Source: Bryobacterales bacterium
Lineage (GTDB): Bacteria; Acidobacteriota; Terriglobia; Bryobacterales; Bryobacteraceae
DNA: 64,000 bases
Direction of reading: 5' to 3'
Assembly: GCA_003164035.1 (NCBI GenBank)
Contig: PLRS01000162.1
Span: 1 to 64,000 of the forward strand
A model generated the notes under the pieces. It saw only the letters and a list, made by a program, of their open reading frames with translations, searched no databases and had not been told where the DNA came from. The position numbers and the translations under genes were made by a program. Shown here in pieces: positions 46,062 through 52,854 of the stretch. How positions within the stretch are numbered: position 1 is the first letter of the stretch; the number at the start of each line of letters is the position of its first letter.

Positions 46062-46088
46062 CGCGACAGGCCGGGAGGCCTGTCCCAC
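46062..46088. repeat. Half copy of repeat family C
   Basis: GCGACAGGCCGGGAGGCCTGTCCCAC-type end, the same as one arm of the full copies at 51510-51586 and 52762-52842. It lies between the GH28 start and the DUF2760 gene. Confidence 0.75.
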
Positions 46089-46118
46089 TGTTATCCTAAA
46101 TCTTCGGAGCTGAATCAT

Positions 46119-46655
46119 TTGAATCGAATTGCACTGGCTTTTCGCAGTTTCTTCCAATTGTTGTTCTCGGGCAAGCTGTCGGACGGCACCCTGGCCGACC
46201 TGCGGCTGTCGCGGCGGGAAGCGTCACCGGGCAAACCAGCCGCCAAGCCCACCCTTGCCGCCGTGCCACCGGCCGCGCGCGTTTCCGACGGCGCGCTTCA
46301 ACTTCTCGCCATTCTGCAGCGCGACTCGCGCCTGGTCGACTTCCTGATGGAAGACATCTCCGCTTACGCCGACGACCAAATCGGCGCCGCCGTGCGCGAG
46401 TTGCACGATCAGTGCCGCGACGCGCTGGCCCGCTACGTCGGTTTGGCCCCGGTGATCGATGGCGTGGAGGGCACTTTCGCCAAAGCGCCGGGCGAACCTG
46501 CCGCCGTCAAATTTGTCGGCAACGTGCCGGCCAAACCGCCGGCCGGCGGTACTTTGCGCCATAAAGGCTGGAAAGCGGTTAAGATCGACTTGCCCTCGCT
46601 ACCAGCCAAACAGGACGCCACCATCATCGCCCCGGCCGAAATCGAAATCGAGTAA
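46119..46655 (+). CDS. DUF2760 protein, first gene of an Hsp70-like cluster
   Basis: 178 residues, start TTG with GGAG about ten bases upstream. The conserved DUF2760 domain starts near residue 60 (GALQLLAILQRDSRLVDFLMEDISAYADDQIGAAVRELHDQCR), continues LARYVGLAPVIDGVEGT and ends TLRHKGWKAVKIDLPSLP. An N-terminal amphipathic or membrane-touching segment (ALAFRSFFQLLF) precedes a flexible Ala/Pro linker. The domain is uncharacterised but regularly found before Hsp70-like genes, as here: the first Hsp70 begins six bases after its stop. A substrate or adaptor role for the Hsp70 pair is inferred. Confidence 0.85.
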   Translation: MNRIALAFRSFFQLLFSGKLSDGTLADLRLSRREASPGKPAAKPTLAAVPPAARVSDGALQLLAILQRDSRLVDFLMEDISAYADDQIGAAVRELHDQCRDALARYVGLAPVIDGVEGTFAKAPGEPAAVKFVGNVPAKPPAGGTLRHKGWKAVKIDLPSLPAKQDATIIAPAEIEIE

Positions 46656-46661
46656 ACCGCC

Positions 46662-48497
46662 TTGCCGCCTCCAGCAGCCAAATTCGTTATCGGAATCGAC
46701 TTGGGCACCACCAACTCCGCGCTCTCTTACGCCAAGGTGGAAGCCGTCGCCGACCCGTTCGCACCCGCCGGCGTGGAATTGCTGCCCATCCCGCAACTGG
46801 CCAACCCCGGCGAAGTGCGGGACGAACCGCTGCTGCCTTCGTTCCTGTATCTGCCCGCGGCCGCGGAGTTTCCGGCGGGCACGCTGGCGCTGCCGTGGGA
46901 TTCGGAGCGGAGCTTCGTCACCGGCTCGCTGGCGCAAAAGCGCGGCGGCGAAAACGCCGGCCGGCTGGTGTCCTCGGCCAAATCGTGGCTGTCCCATTCG
47001 GGCGTCGACCGAACTTCGCCGCTGGTCCCCTTCCGCGCGCCCGAAGGAGTCGACAAAATTTCCCCGGTCGTTGCCAGCCGCCGCTACCTGGAACACCTGC
47101 GCGAAGCCTGGGACTACAAGATGCCCGAGGACCCGTTCGCCGCGCAGCACGTACTGGTGACCGTGCCCGCCTCGTTCGACGCGGTGGCGCGGGAGCTGAC
47201 CCTGGCCGCGGCCGAGCAGGCCGGTTATCGCGACGTGACCCTGCTCGAAGAACCCCAGGCCGCTTTCTACGCCTGGATCGAGCGCCATCCGGATTGGCGC
47301 GAGCGGGTGACGGTGGGCGACCTGATTCTGGTGGTCGATATCGGCGGCGGCACCACCGATTTCACCCTCATCGCCGTCACCGAAGCGAACGGCGAGTTGC
47401 AGCTCGAACGCGTGGCCGTGGGCGAGCACATCCTGCTGGGCGGCGACAATATCGATCTGGCGCTGGCCGGCGCCGTGGCCGAACGGCTGGCGCAGAAGGG
47501 CACGCGCCTGGATTCGCGCCAAATGCAGGCGCTTTGGAATAACTGCCGCACGGCCAAGGAAAAATTGCTGGAGCCGGGCAACAAGGCCAAAGAGCAGGCG
47601 GTCACGATTCTGGGGAAAGGATCCGGGCTGGTGGGAGGAACCATCAAAGCTTCGCTGCTCCGGGAAGATATCGAACGCATCCTCTCCGCCGGCTTCCTGC
47701 CCGAAGTGGCCAGCACCGACATGCCCGCGCAGCAGCGCCGCGTGGGGCTGCAGGAGTTGGGCCTACCCTACGCCGCCGATGCCGCCATCACCCGTCACCT
47801 GGCGCGCTTTCTGCGCCAGCAGGCCGCCACCCAGCGCGGCACCGTGCGCAGCGGACCGAGCGGCCTGGCGTGCCCCAGCCACGTGCTCTTCAACGGCGGC
47901 GTGCTCAATGCCGCCGAGGTGCGCGAAAGAATTCTCGAGACGCTCGGCCGCTGGCTCGCCGCCGAGGGCATGAACAAAGTGCAGCCGCTCGCCGGCGAGG
48001 ATTTGATGCACGCGGTTTCGCGCGGGGCGGCTTATTACGGGCTGGCGCGAATGGGGCGAGGCGTGCGCATCCGCGGCGGCGTGCCGCGCAGCTACTACGT
48101 CGGCATCGAATCCGCCATGCCCACCGTTCCCGGCTTCCCCGCCCCGCTCAAAGCGTTGAATGTGGTCCCCTTCGGTATGGAAGAAGCCAGCGAGGCGCGC
48201 ATCCCCAATCGCGAATTCGGCCTGGTGGTGGGCCAACCCGCCGAGTTCCGCTTCTTCACCTCCACCGCCCGCAAACAGGACCAGCCCGGCGACCTCATCG
48301 AGGACCTGGGCGACGAGCTCGAAGAGCTCGCTCCCATGGAAGTCACTTTCGCCGGCGGTGAAAGCTCGAGCGAGGTGGTCCCGGTTTCCTTCGAATCCGT
48401 CGTCACCGAAACCGGCGTGCTGCAGCTCTGGTGCGTGGCCCGCGACGGCCGCCGCTGGAAACTCGAATTCAACGTCCGCGAGCGGGTGAGAGCATGA
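46662..48497 (+). CDS. Divergent Hsp70-family ATPase, member 1
   Basis: 611 residues, TTG start six bases after DUF2760. The actin-like ATPase is complete: VIGIDLGTTNSALSYAK (phosphate 1), VSSAKSWLSHSGVDR (Lys equivalent to DnaK Lys70), LLEEPQAAFYAWI, VVDIGGGTTDFTLIAV (phosphate 2) and HVLFNGGVLNAAEVRERI (adenosine). The C-terminal 130 residues do not resemble the DnaK substrate-binding domain and there is no lid or EEVD-like tail. No DnaJ or GrpE gene is nearby. It is likely a specialised chaperone acting with the second Hsp70 and DUF2760. Confidence 0.9.
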   Translation: MPPPAAKFVIGIDLGTTNSALSYAKVEAVADPFAPAGVELLPIPQLANPGEVRDEPLLPSFLYLPAAAEFPAGTLALPWDSERSFVTGSLAQKRGGENAGRLVSSAKSWLSHSGVDRTSPLVPFRAPEGVDKISPVVASRRYLEHLREAWDYKMPEDPFAAQHVLVTVPASFDAVARELTLAAAEQAGYRDVTLLEEPQAAFYAWIERHPDWRERVTVGDLILVVDIGGGTTDFTLIAVTEANGELQLERVAVGEHILLGGDNIDLALAGAVAERLAQKGTRLDSRQMQALWNNCRTAKEKLLEPGNKAKEQAVTILGKGSGLVGGTIKASLLREDIERILSAGFLPEVASTDMPAQQRRVGLQELGLPYAADAAITRHLARFLRQQAATQRGTVRSGPSGLACPSHVLFNGGVLNAAEVRERILETLGRWLAAEGMNKVQPLAGEDLMHAVSRGAAYYGLARMGRGVRIRGGVPRSYYVGIESAMPTVPGFPAPLKALNVVPFGMEEASEARIPNREFGLVVGQPAEFRFFTSTARKQDQPGDLIEDLGDELEELAPMEVTFAGGESSSEVVPVSFESVVTETGVLQLWCVARDGRRWKLEFNVRERVRA

Positions 48498-48513
48498 TCG
48501 CAGCTATCCTCCC

Positions 48514-48595
48514 TGTGGGGCAGACCATCGTTTTTTGTGGTCTGCCACCCAAGCTCCTTCATGGCAAACCACGAAAAACGATGGTCTGCCCCACA
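48514..48595. repeat. Palindromic repeat family A, copy 2, between the Hsp70 genes
   Basis: Perfect 22-base arms, 48514-48535 (GGGGCAGACCATCG within) and 48574-48595 (CGATGGTCTGCCCC within), enclose a 38-base centre that contains nested half-palindromes. It starts 17 bases after the first Hsp70 stop and ends nine bases before the second Hsp70 ATG, so it fills the intergenic mRNA and the normal ribosome-binding position. Confidence 0.88.
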
Positions 48596-48603
48596 ATGAC
48601 ACC

Positions 48604-51267
48604 ATGAAGATCGGCATCGACCTCGGCACCACCAATTCCGCCCTGGCTTACATCGACGAACGCGAAGCCGAGGACCGCGATTTCCCGCCTATCCGCATTT
48701 TCGAAACCCCGCAACTGGTCGCCGCCGGCCGCATCGAACCGCGCCGCACCTTGCCCTCGTTCCTCTTTTTAGAAGACGGCCAGCCGGTCGGCCTCTACGC
48801 CCGCGAGCAGGGCGCACTCATCCCCACCCGGCTGGTGCATTCCGCCAAGTCCTGGCTCTCGAATCCCGACGTCGACCGCACCGCCAAAATTCTTCCCTGG
48901 GATTCACAGGAGACCGGCCGCGTCCTCTCGCCGGTAGAAGTCTCTTCGCGCTTTCTGGCCAAGTTCCGCGAAGAGTGGGACCGCACCCAGCACACTTCGC
49001 TGGCCCAGCAGGACGTGGTGCTGACCGTGCCCGCTTCCTTCGACGAGGAAGCCCGCGAGCTGACCGTGATGGCCGCTCGCGATGCGGGTATCGAGCGGCT
49101 GACCTTGCTCGAAGAGCCGGCCGCCGCGTTCTATTCGTGGATCTCCGCCAACCTGGCGCAATCGCGCAAGAAGCTGGTGGATGGCGAAACCGTGCTCGTC
49201 TGCGACGTGGGCGGCGGCACCAGCGATTTCAGCCTGATTCGCGTTTCGCGCGAAGGCGACCTGGTGAACTTCACCCGCACCGCCGTGGGCAAACACCTGC
49301 TGCTGGGCGGCGACAATCTGGATCTCACTCTCGCCTGGCTGGTGGAGGCCAAGCTGGGCAAGCAGCTTTCCATTCGCCAGCGCAGCGGTTTGCGTCGGCA
49401 GTGCTCGGCGGCCAAGGAGCGGTTGCTCAACGACCCGAATCTGAAGTCTGTCGAGATTACCGTGCTCGGCACCGGCTCGGCGTTGATCGGCAAATCGCTC
49501 AAGACCGAAATCCTGCGCCAGGAAGCGCTGGAGCTGGCACTCGAAGGTTTTCTCCCCTTTTCCGCTCGCGGCGAAGCGCCCAAGGAAGAGAAGCGCAGCC
49601 TGTTCCGGGAACTGGGCCTGCCCTACGTCACCGACCCCGCCATCACCCGCCATCTCAATGTGTTTCTCGAAAGCGCCATCGGGTCCGCCGGCCACGAGCC
49701 CGACGCCATTCTGTTCAACGGCGGCTTCTTCATCCCGCAAATCCTGCGCGAGCGCGTGGCCGACGTGCTCTGCCGCTGGTACGGACGCCGCCCGGAGATC
49801 CTCGAAAATAGCGACCTGGACCTGGCCGTGGCCCGCGGCGCGGCCTATTACAGCTATGCGCGCAGTACCGGAGGCGGCATCCTGGTGCGCGGCGGCCTGC
49901 CGCGAACCTATTACATCGCGTTGGGCGAAGTCCGCGACGGCAAATTCCCCGCCGTGTGCCTGGTGCCGCGCGGGGCCGAAGAAGGTTCGGCGGTCTCGAT
50001 CGATAACGACGCCCTGCAACTGGTCGCCAATCGCCCGGTCGGCTTCCGTCTCTATAGCTCGCTCGCCCGCGCCGAAGACAAGCTGGGCGACGTGGTGGAA
50101 TTCGCGGCCGACGACGAAAGCCTGCACCGGCACGCGCCCTTGCACGCCGTGATCCGCTTCGGCAAGAAAGCCGAGGAGCGTCTGATTCCGGTGAAGCTGG
50201 GCGCGCGGCTCACCGAGGTCGGCACCCTCGAAACCTGGTGCGAATCGAAGATCAGCGACAATCGCTGGAACCTGGAATTCGCCCTCCGCAAACAGACGGC
50301 CCAGCCGGCCGAACGCCGCGCCGCGGCGGTAATGAGTGAGCAGGCGCTGAAAGGTTCGCTGGAATCGATTACGGTCATGTTTTCGCCTAGCGCCAAAGCG
50401 CCCTTTCCGCCCGAGGAGCTGCCTGCCCGCCTGGAACAGAGCATGGGCCTGGGCCGCAATTCGTGGCCCGTCGCCGCCATTCGCCAGATGGCCGATGCGT
50501 TTCTGGCGGCCGCGGACGGGCGCAAGAAGTCGGCCGCGTTCGAAATTCGCTGGCTCAACCTGGCCGGCTTCTGCCTCCGCCCCGGCTTCGGATTTCCCGG
50601 CGACGACTTTCGCATCGAGCAGGCCCGGCGCGTCTACTCGAGCGGCCTCGCCTACTCCAATCAGGCTCAATGCGAAATCGATTGGTGGATCTTCTGGGGA
50701 CGCCTCGCCGGCGGCTTGAATCGTAATCAGCAGACCGATATTTACCAGCGCCTCTCGGCGTTTCTGCTGCCGCGAGGCTCGAAGAAACCGCCGCGCCTGA
50801 ATCCGTCGCTGCTGCGCGAAATGTGGCGCACCGCGTCCAGCCTGGAGCTTTTGCCGGTGGGCACCAAGACCGAGCTCGGCGATGCGCTCGTCAAGCGAGT
50901 CAGGTCCGGCGATTACAAAGAGAGCGAGCTGTGGTGCCTGTTGCGATTGGGCGCGCGCAAGCTATTCTACGGCCCCATCAACCTGGTCGTGCCCCCGGCG
51001 GTCGCCGCGCGCTGGGCCGAAGCGCTGCTCGCCATCCCCGCCGCGGCCGATGCCCTGGCCGCTATCGCCCGCCGCACCGAAGACCCCACCCGCGATCTGC
51101 CCATCGCCACCCGCAACACCGTTCGCGCCAAGCTGGCGCAGCACGCCCACGCCGACCGCTTGCTGCCCATCCTCGATGGCGAAGCCGAAGACGACCGGGC
51201 GCTAGGCCGCATCTTCGGCGAGGAACTGCCCTCCGGCCTGGTGATGGTGGACCAGCCGGTAGAGTGA
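48604..51267 (+). CDS. Divergent Hsp70-family ATPase, member 2, with long C-terminal DUF3731-like extension
   Basis: 887 residues. The ATPase reads KIGIDLGTTNSALAYIDE, VHSAKSWLSNPDVDR, LLEEPAAAFYSWI, VCDVGGGTSDFSLIRV and AILFNGGFFIPQILRERV. After a short beta domain (residues about 490-570), a helical extension of about 300 residues follows (ALKGSLESITVMFSPSAKAPFPP, WLNLAGFCLRPGFGFPGDDFR, WWIFWGRLAGGLNRNQQ, LWCLLRLGARKLFYGPIN), matching the DUF3731 type. ATG 48604 follows the inverted repeat; no ribosome-binding site is visible. It is paired with member 1 and DUF2760 on the same strand. Confidence 0.9.
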   Translation: MKIGIDLGTTNSALAYIDEREAEDRDFPPIRIFETPQLVAAGRIEPRRTLPSFLFLEDGQPVGLYAREQGALIPTRLVHSAKSWLSNPDVDRTAKILPWDSQETGRVLSPVEVSSRFLAKFREEWDRTQHTSLAQQDVVLTVPASFDEEARELTVMAARDAGIERLTLLEEPAAAFYSWISANLAQSRKKLVDGETVLVCDVGGGTSDFSLIRVSREGDLVNFTRTAVGKHLLLGGDNLDLTLAWLVEAKLGKQLSIRQRSGLRRQCSAAKERLLNDPNLKSVEITVLGTGSALIGKSLKTEILRQEALELALEGFLPFSARGEAPKEEKRSLFRELGLPYVTDPAITRHLNVFLESAIGSAGHEPDAILFNGGFFIPQILRERVADVLCRWYGRRPEILENSDLDLAVARGAAYYSYARSTGGGILVRGGLPRTYYIALGEVRDGKFPAVCLVPRGAEEGSAVSIDNDALQLVANRPVGFRLYSSLARAEDKLGDVVEFAADDESLHRHAPLHAVIRFGKKAEERLIPVKLGARLTEVGTLETWCESKISDNRWNLEFALRKQTAQPAERRAAAVMSEQALKGSLESITVMFSPSAKAPFPPEELPARLEQSMGLGRNSWPVAAIRQMADAFLAAADGRKKSAAFEIRWLNLAGFCLRPGFGFPGDDFRIEQARRVYSSGLAYSNQAQCEIDWWIFWGRLAGGLNRNQQTDIYQRLSAFLLPRGSKKPPRLNPSLLREMWRTASSLELLPVGTKTELGDALVKRVRSGDYKESELWCLLRLGARKLFYGPINLVVPPAVAARWAEALLAIPAAADALAAIARRTEDPTRDLPIATRNTVRAKLAQHAHADRLLPILDGEAEDDRALGRIFGEELPSGLVMVDQPVE

Positions 51268-51297
51268 GATTTCGCTAATTCCGAGGAGGCTAGCCTC

Positions 51298-51504
51298 ATG
51301 CGAAAATTTCTGCAATACATCACCAATAACGAGGCAAGATCCCGCCACGAAGAGTCCTTCGATGCGGTCTTTTGGGTCATAGAAACACTCGCCCTGATCT
51401 TTGGGATATGGATCCTTCTCGCCAGGCATGACCCCGAGTGGATACCATTTCTCGTCATCGAATACTGCTGGGCAATGGACAACCTGCGCCACAATCGCCC
51501 TTAG
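51298..51504 (+). CDS. Small membrane protein, 68 aa
   Basis: A short protein with a good ribosome-binding site (GAGGAGG, nine bases from the ATG). A hydrophobic helix (VFWVIETLALIFGIWILLA, about residues 24-42) is followed by a second apolar stretch (WIPFLVIEYCWAM). The N-terminus is charged. No domain is recognised. It follows the second Hsp70 by 30 bp on the same strand and is probably the last gene of that operon. Confidence 0.6.
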   Translation: MRKFLQYITNNEARSRHEESFDAVFWVIETLALIFGIWILLARHDPEWIPFLVIEYCWAMDNLRHNRP

Positions 51505-51509
51505 ACCGA

Positions 51510-51586
51510 GTGGGACAGGCCTCCTGGCCTGTCGTAGCCGCGAAGCGGCTCTTCCAGCCAGCGACAGGCCGGGAGGCCTGTCCCAC
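51510..51586. repeat. Palindromic repeat family C, copy 1
   Basis: GTGGGACAGGCCTCCTGGCC at the left and GGCCGGGAGGCCTGTCCCAC at the right enclose a centre reading GTAGCCGCGAAGCGGCTCTT then CCAGCCAGCGACAG. It lies 24 bp after the stop of the mutarotase-fold gene. Confidence 0.88.
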
Positions 51587-51610
51587 CAAACGCAGGCACT
51601 TGGCGCTCCC

Positions 51611-52663: not shown

Positions 52664-52761
52664 AACTTAATCAGTAACACACGACGTTGTGGGGCGGGCC
52701 CTCGGCCTGCGGCGGCCTCCCAGGCCGCCTTGCTCGCAACCCAGCCAATCTGCCCGTTATA

Positions 52762-52842
52762 GTGGGACAGGCCTCCTGGCCTGTCCTGTCGCTGGCTGGA
52801 AAAGCCGCTTCGCGCTACGACAGGCCGGGAGGCCTGTCCCAC
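52762..52842. repeat. Palindromic repeat family C, copy 2 (inverted relative to copy 1)
   Basis: The same ends as copy 1, but the centre (CTGTCGCTGGCTGGAAAAGC then CGCTTCGCGCTACGACAG) is the reverse complement of copy 1's, so the two copies face each other around the mutarotase-fold gene. It ends 13 bp from the stop of the next gene. Confidence 0.88.
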
Positions 52843-52854
52843 CGAAAGCACACT

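Follow-up and report, generated by a model that had tools for sequence, protein, structure and literature searches.

Here we describe a small operon encoding two non-canonical Hsp70-like ATPases and a DUF2760 protein in a Bryobacterales bacterium (Acidobacteriota), located within a 64,000-nt window (the whole stretch of DNA that was analysed; positions 1 to 64,000 of contig PLRS01000162.1, assembly GCA_003164035.1). The source is an 8.0-Mb draft genome (G000, contig 74), and the nearest named records are, among the matches listed, Bryobacterales- and Solibacter-type Acidobacteriota. Four open reading frames (ORFs) lie head to tail on the plus strand, encoding the DUF2760 protein, the ATPases (here termed HspA and HspB) and a 68-aa protein; their positions and the gaps of 6, 106 and 30 bp agree with an initial annotation made from the letters alone. 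The locus comprises the following features (NBD, nucleotide-binding domain; SBD, substrate-binding domain; pLDDT, predicted local distance difference test).

46119-46655, plus strand: DUF2760 protein, 178 aa, TTG start; PF10816 at 133.5 bits; single copy in the genome; model pLDDT 91.5
46119-46199, plus strand: N-terminal helix region of DUF2760, residues 1-27, with model helices at 3-17 and 22-27; site of transmembrane segments in other phyla
46614-46652, plus strand: conserved C-terminal tail of DUF2760, ending APAEIEIE; AE[IVLMF]E lies near the end of homologues
46662-48497, plus strand: HspA, 611-aa Hsp70-like ATPase with NBD and C-terminal β-region, lacking an extension; PF00012 at 57.2 bits, alignment to HspB, active-site residues
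48514-48595, no strand: hairpin repeat in the HspA-HspB gap, outside the conserved module; 34-nt arms, 94% complementary
48604-51267, plus strand: HspB, 887-aa Hsp70-like ATPase with DUF3731; PF00012 at 77.7 bits, PF12531 at 238 bits; model pLDDT 86.1
48604-49878, plus strand: NBD of HspB, residues 1-425; VIA-align Z 38 to DnaK NBDs
49891-50283, plus strand: predicted β-domain of HspB, about residues 430-560, at the SBDβ position; model strands at 435-557, Foldseek alignments of ~600 columns to NBD+SBDβ chains
50335-51246, plus strand: helical domain of HspB with DUF3731, residues 578-881 (Pfam 643-881); PF12531, model helices from 579
51298-51504, plus strand: 68-aa ORF with a hydrophobic segment, lineage-specific (1/41 genomes), outside the conserved module

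The DUF2760 match covers positions 3-124 of the 124 in its Pfam model (cut-off 25 bits), DUF3731 matches HspB over its entire model (1-248 of 248), and both ATPases exceed the cut-off of the HSP70 superfamily (20.6 bits). The TTG start of the DUF2760 gene lines up with the starts of acidobacterial homologues. In a profile alignment of 596 columns, the two ATPases are 39% identical and share the NBD and the C-terminal β-region, to which HspB adds ~300 residues.

The initial annotation stated that these domains co-occur with Hsp70-like genes, and for DUF2760, HspA and HspB this is borne out. Among 199 Acidobacteriota genomes, DUF3731 and DUF2760 scored above cut-off in the same five, the window's own included, with a sub-threshold DUF2760 match in a sixth. 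In a set of 61 relatives, DUF3731 was found in 33, DUF2760 in 32 and both in 31, with all carriers belonging to the window's family (DUF3731 in 33/37 genomes within it and 0/24 outside); the two genomes with DUF3731 only are 84% and 62% complete. Around HspB, 27 of 28 family loci encode DUF2760 (the contig of the 28th begins inside HspA) and 19 encode HspA. A broader set gave 63 informative loci, i.e. those with at least 4 kb upstream of HspB or with DUF2760 seen, and 58 of these have DUF2760 and 38 HspA upstream of HspB; admitting loci on a DUF2760 sighting favours DUF2760, and if only the 52 loci that reach 4 kb or further upstream are counted, the figure is 47. Since loci L038-L065 and L066-L123 share genomes, their counts were not summed.

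HspA behaves differently from its paralogue. Four of the nine genomes lacking it at the locus keep a copy elsewhere (59-78% identity), which corrects our assumption that it had been lost there; in the remaining five, drafts of 91-98% completeness, it was not detected. Conversely, HspA was found in none of the 13 DUF3731-negative genomes searched (chosen from the 28 negatives among the 61 relatives), which returned weak, general Hsp70 matches only. HspA thus follows HspB, whereas HspB can be present in its absence. In a tree of acidobacterial HspB proteins (built without L121), HspA at the locus switches between present and absent five or more times on starred branches, and eight times by parsimony. 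The junction of the two genes varies as well, with a 4-bp overlap in many acidobacterial relatives and a spacing of 16-283 bp in other phyla.

To look beyond Acidobacteriota, named genomes were scanned with the C-terminal half of HspB as query; the best 80 loci (which are no phylum census) comprise 61 from Acidobacteriota, 13 from Thermodesulfobacteriota, three from Nitrospirota, one from Pseudomonadota and two labelled Myxococcota solely on the strength of 'Deltaproteobacteria' in their titles. In a tree of 60 proteins, a single branch with 100% support in the Shimodaira-Hasegawa-like approximate likelihood-ratio test (SH-aLRT) splits HspA (26) from HspB (34), and each group includes members from Acidobacteriota, Thermodesulfobacteriota, Nitrospirota and Pseudomonadota. 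The same split was recovered in a second tree restricted to the columns common to HspA and HspB (58 rows, DUF3731 excluded), from which the long-branched L034_A and L034_B had been removed. The duplication that gave rise to HspA and HspB hence appears to predate the spread of the module, be it by descent or by transfer. Plasmid carriers comprise Burkholderia, Caballeronia, a Comamonadaceae strain, Bradyrhizobium (two conjugative plasmids) and Thiodictyon; in the six plasmid records read, DUF2760 and HspA were present in all and HspB in five. On the Bradyrhizobium conjugative plasmid pCB82_1 (L034 6378-14889), groES and groEL come after the module. DUF2760, HspA and HspB are a real, conserved and old gene set that is inherited together. 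The names DUF2760 and DUF3731 did not occur in the literature searched, and the module is undescribed so far.

Both ATPases retain their nucleotide-site residues. The initial annotation had noted intact phosphate loops and an equivalent of DnaK Lys70 in each; all 18 NBD positions checked, among them those that we equate by motif with DnaK Lys70, Glu171 and Thr199, are invariant in 26 HspA and 34 HspB sequences. Neither protein scores as a canonical DnaK or HscA: their NCBIfam equivalog scores reach at most 73.9 (HspA) and 96.2 bits (HspB) against DnaK/HscA cut-offs of at least 620, the top scores of both belonging to HscA models. Compared with three reference DnaKs, the NBD junction lacks an aliphatic linker of the VLLLD type in both ATPases. 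HspA ends with its β-region, apparently without an α-lid, and the helices of HspB have no profile similarity to the DnaK lid.

The HspB model (pLDDT 86.1; predicted template modelling score, pTM, 0.63) has an NBD up to residue ~425, followed by strands and then helices. Its best Foldseek match was full-length, ATP-state DnaK (E-value 4e-23), followed by BiP and, lower, the Hsp110 protein Sse1. VIA-align gave Z-scores of about 37-38, nearly all for the NBD only, with one of 50 rows (9a5j, an integrative model) spanning residues 1-562. Accordingly placed by the model, the β-domain is predicted to occupy the substrate-binding position of DnaK. Profile comparison with hhalign yielded a probability of 99.7 for the NBD against DnaK, 0.2 for the β-region against the DnaK SBD and 0.1 for DUF3731 against the lid, using a DnaK profile of two sequences from which the Miltoncostaea DnaK (L172), not caught by the linker pattern, had been left out. 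L121 and L104 were excluded from the domain sets. No PDB sequence matched the β-domain profile at an E-value of 5. The DUF3731 profile matched RopGEF8 over ~110 residues at an E-value of 0.009, which is too weak to use, and a viral structure library returned mostly general Hsp70s. The earlier statement that neither ATPase has a DnaK-like SBD consequently stands by sequence, as judged with hhalign, and fails by the predicted fold of HspB, with which HspA aligns end to end.

The third member, DUF2760, has no evident relatives of known structure. In its model (pTM 0.64), a short helix at the N-terminus is followed by a linker and by a compact core, which is helical with small strands. The best match to PDB sequences had an E-value of 0.37; among solved structures, Foldseek found no match at an E-value of 0.001 or below, and the best VIA-align Z-score was 4.0. 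No other Pfam family matched at E-values up to 1, hence there is no J-domain match. We scanned the N-termini for transmembrane-type segments (Kyte-Doolittle scale, 19 residues, threshold 1.8), extending the open frame by as many as 130 codons upstream; start sites are therefore not fixed. All 13 non-acidobacterial copies carry such a segment before the core, ten of them two, and both Bradyrhizobium plasmid copies show two hydrophobic segments by eye. The N-termini from Acidobacteriota and Burkholderiales have, likewise by eye and with no control computed, a shorter, moderately amphipathic stretch. At the other end of the protein, exactly two residues separate the end of the motif AE[IVLMF]E from the C-terminus in 51/58 homologues. 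L037, with a stop at the coordinates used, was left out of the DUF2760 alignment. These N-termini and the C-terminal motif would suit an adaptor at the membrane whose tail binds a partner.

We read DUF2760, HspA and HspB, with a probability of roughly 45%, as a dedicated Hsp70-type module that acts on the cytoplasmic side of the inner membrane and is recruited there by DUF2760. DUF2760 would sit in or on the membrane via its N-terminus, and its core or tail would recruit HspB, plus HspA where present. The lidless β-domains of both Hsp70s would then bind and release membrane-linked client segments in an ATP-driven manner, and the helical DUF3731 region of HspB may take the place of the lid or act as an integral partner or exchange domain. 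The smallest version of the module would be HspB plus DUF2760, with HspA as an additional ATPase that depends on HspB. The computed basis is co-inheritance, the intact ATPase residues and, in DUF2760, a helical N-terminus (membrane-type in other phyla), a conserved core and a tail of constant position; we infer membrane binding in the species of the window, recruitment, client handling and the role of DUF3731 as lid or exchange domain. Hsp70 machines are usually a trio of an Hsp70, a J-protein and an exchange factor. In a bolder and, to our mind, doubtful version, the module would be an Hsp70 machine free of J-protein and GrpE, with membrane-bound DUF2760 acting as the J-protein (recruitment and ATPase triggering through its C-terminal tail), DUF3731 as lid plus exchange factor and HspA as a dispensable motor. 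The absence of a J-protein or GrpE nearby, claimed initially, holds for the four flanking genes submitted to Pfam, which is as far as the scan reached.

Several observations weigh against a membrane-recruited module. No transmembrane-type segment was detected in 40/45 acidobacterial DUF2760 proteins and one segment in the other five; the window's protein has its short N-terminal helix only, and membrane binding by this helix is a guess from its composition. The DUF2760 tail is predicted by the model to be ordered on the monomer. The β-region has no detectable sequence similarity to the SBDβ of DnaK, so peptide binding is unproven. Genetic linkage is also imperfect: four loci (L069, L072, L119 and L139) have no DUF2760 in more than 5 kb upstream of HspB, a fifth (L066) has DUF2760 and HspA inverted about 6 kb from HspB, and the relocated HspA copies have neither DUF2760 nor a shared neighbour in the stretches read. 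Finally, one genome (G007) encodes a lone, divergent DUF2760 (L156 7818-8378, minus strand); DUF3731 is absent from this genome, and neither HspA nor HspB was matched within the 16 kb that were read.

Alternatively, DUF2760 could be a dedicated client, i.e. a membrane-associated protein that a private pair of Hsp70s would assemble or switch on and off, as HscA serves one scaffold protein. The one-to-one co-inheritance of DUF2760 and HspB, the HscA models at the top of the NCBIfam scores (albeit far below cut-off) and the conserved, exposed C-terminal tail of DUF2760 would all agree with this. However, DUF2760 is small and lacks a recognised catalytic fold, and the ATPase-free copy in G007 argues, weakly, against strict dependence. 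We consider this possible, though unlikely.

A soluble pair in the manner of Hsp70 and Hsp110, in which HspB would serve mainly as exchange factor or holdase for HspA and any membrane link would be secondary, appears quite unlikely. It would account for two paralogues of unequal length with a common NBD and β-region, for the restriction of HspA to where DUF3731 is and for Sse1 among the structural matches of HspB; yet Sse1 ranked under ordinary Hsp70s, all catalytic positions are kept in both NBDs, and HspB occurs without detectable HspA in five of the nine genomes checked.

The plasmid-borne copies raise the question of a mobile accessory or anti-phage module, whose Hsp70s would sense or protect against infection. 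On Thiodictyon plasmid pTs485 (L036 197-14717), DUF2760 lies with one HspA-type gene amid annotated anti-phage genes, and HspB is absent; the full set resides on the two conjugative Bradyrhizobium plasmids, and Hsp70-like domains occur in CoCoNuT systems (PMC11090510). Within the window's family, however, the module is near-universal (33/37) and accompanied by recurrent chromosomal neighbours. In PADLOC-DB 2.0.0, DUF2760 matched nothing, and HspA and HspB matched only ~90 residues, in the NBD, of the 588-position PDC-M61B model. Phage cargo was rejected too: the 35 phage records that match HspB cover at most 28% of it, in the 15 listed the NBD only, DUF2760 has no match in phage records, and the C-terminal half of HspB has no relative in viral contigs. 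We regard an anti-phage role as very improbable.

This leaves the 68-aa ORF, proposed initially as a membrane anchor for the complex. A purine-rich GAGGAGG shortly upstream of its start suggests that the gene may be real; it has no Pfam family above cut-off. Neither co-occurrence nor ATPase residues are lost for DUF2760, HspA and HspB, and it is the 68-aa gene that lacks co-occurrence, leading us to reject it from the module as an orphan. Despite its strand, 30-bp gap, upstream GAGGAGG and hydrophobic segment, an anchoring role is barely credible, as no homologue was found in the 40 other genomes searched and none better than an E-value of 0.26 at the other loci compared. The membrane-type N-terminus sits in DUF2760 itself, which is the likelier membrane link.

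With regard to genomic context, Pfam assigned the four flanking genes to a GH28 enzyme, a phosphate acetyl/butyryltransferase, a histone-deacetylase-like protein and a sub-threshold DUF4432 match. We found no fourth partner gene, since no other neighbour family occurs in more than three of 27 loci outside the Bryobacterales-type set (ORFs on or inside module genes were set aside), and no recurrent nuclease gene was seen at module loci. At the partly redundant Bryobacterales-type loci (L038-L160), an AIRS-family gene was found in 35 and a gene for a protein with a MerR-type helix-turn-helix (HTH) and tetratricopeptide repeats (TPR) in 26 (putatively thiL and HspR). The MerR-type HTH and TPR protein (e.g. 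L041 3596-4552) is possibly a regulator. In 57 upstream regions, CIRCE, HAIR and sigma-32 patterns were not clearly more frequent than in shuffles, the best HAIR hit having three mismatches versus four in one shuffle. In Thermodesulfobacteriota, MlaE-type lipid-transport permease genes lie near the module at three loci (L126 11133-12257, L143 1604-2749 and L144 2093-3226), assigned by Pfam for L126, with which the other two cluster.

The hairpin between HspA and HspB has 109 local matches on both strands of the genome (a palindrome counts twice), and is therefore a dispersed element resembling repetitive extragenic palindromes (REP). A second palindromic repeat family (GTGGGACAGGCC...GGCCTGTCCCAC) lies on both sides of the operon (46064-46096, 51509-51594 and 52761-52850). 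Elsewhere in the genome, the best HSP70 match is a DnaK-like gene that is split in three (contig 76, 72071-73852), with the central piece in a different frame, through either an error in the assembly or genuine frameshifts; besides it and the operon, the genome has one or more additional Hsp70-like genes.

Among described systems, E. coli HscC is reported to be encoded near the tail-anchored J-proteins DjlB and DjlC, with a proposed role at the plasma membrane (PMC8215388). The likeness, an analogy, would be that of a non-canonical Hsp70 encoded close to small membrane-anchored partners; unlike these, DUF2760 has its membrane segments at the N-terminus and no J-domain match, and the module described here has two Hsp70s and the extra DUF3731. 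Because DUF2760 shows no J-domain, the parallel is functional only. In CoCoNuT systems, CnuD and CnuC contain an Hsp70-like NBD/SBD, followed in type III-A CnuC by a HEAT-like helical domain; CnuDs lie within nuclease operons and are, in their authors' view, very poor ATPases (PMC11090510). HspB shares this succession of Hsp70-like and helical parts, whereas the sites of HspA and HspB are intact and recurrent nuclease neighbours were not seen. For Myxococcus xanthus, one report lists six cd10170 Hsp70-like genes, and deletion of one of them, MXAN_5323 (925 aa), like that of four other hsp70 genes, lowered sporulation and survival after H2O2 (PMC8265645). In length, MXAN_5323 fits HspB, making it a candidate counterpart.

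The pairing of Hsp110 (Sse1) with Hsp70 likewise joins two unequal partners of Hsp70 fold, and Sse1 is among the structural matches of HspB, but the extra domain of HspB is DUF3731, without profile similarity to the DnaK lid, and HspB occurs without HspA. With DnaK and HscA, the two ATPases share the NBD fold, the catalytic residues and, in HspB, a predicted β-domain behind the NBD; they differ in lacking the aliphatic linker, in the apparently lidless HspA and in scores far under the equivalog cut-offs. A three-gene set in at least four phyla has kept and doubled the Hsp70 motor, without its usual linker and with a different, apparently membrane-linked partner. If our reading is true, it would offer a compact system for studying alternative ways of triggering and resetting an Hsp70 motor, as well as the proteins that are chaperoned at the bacterial inner membrane.

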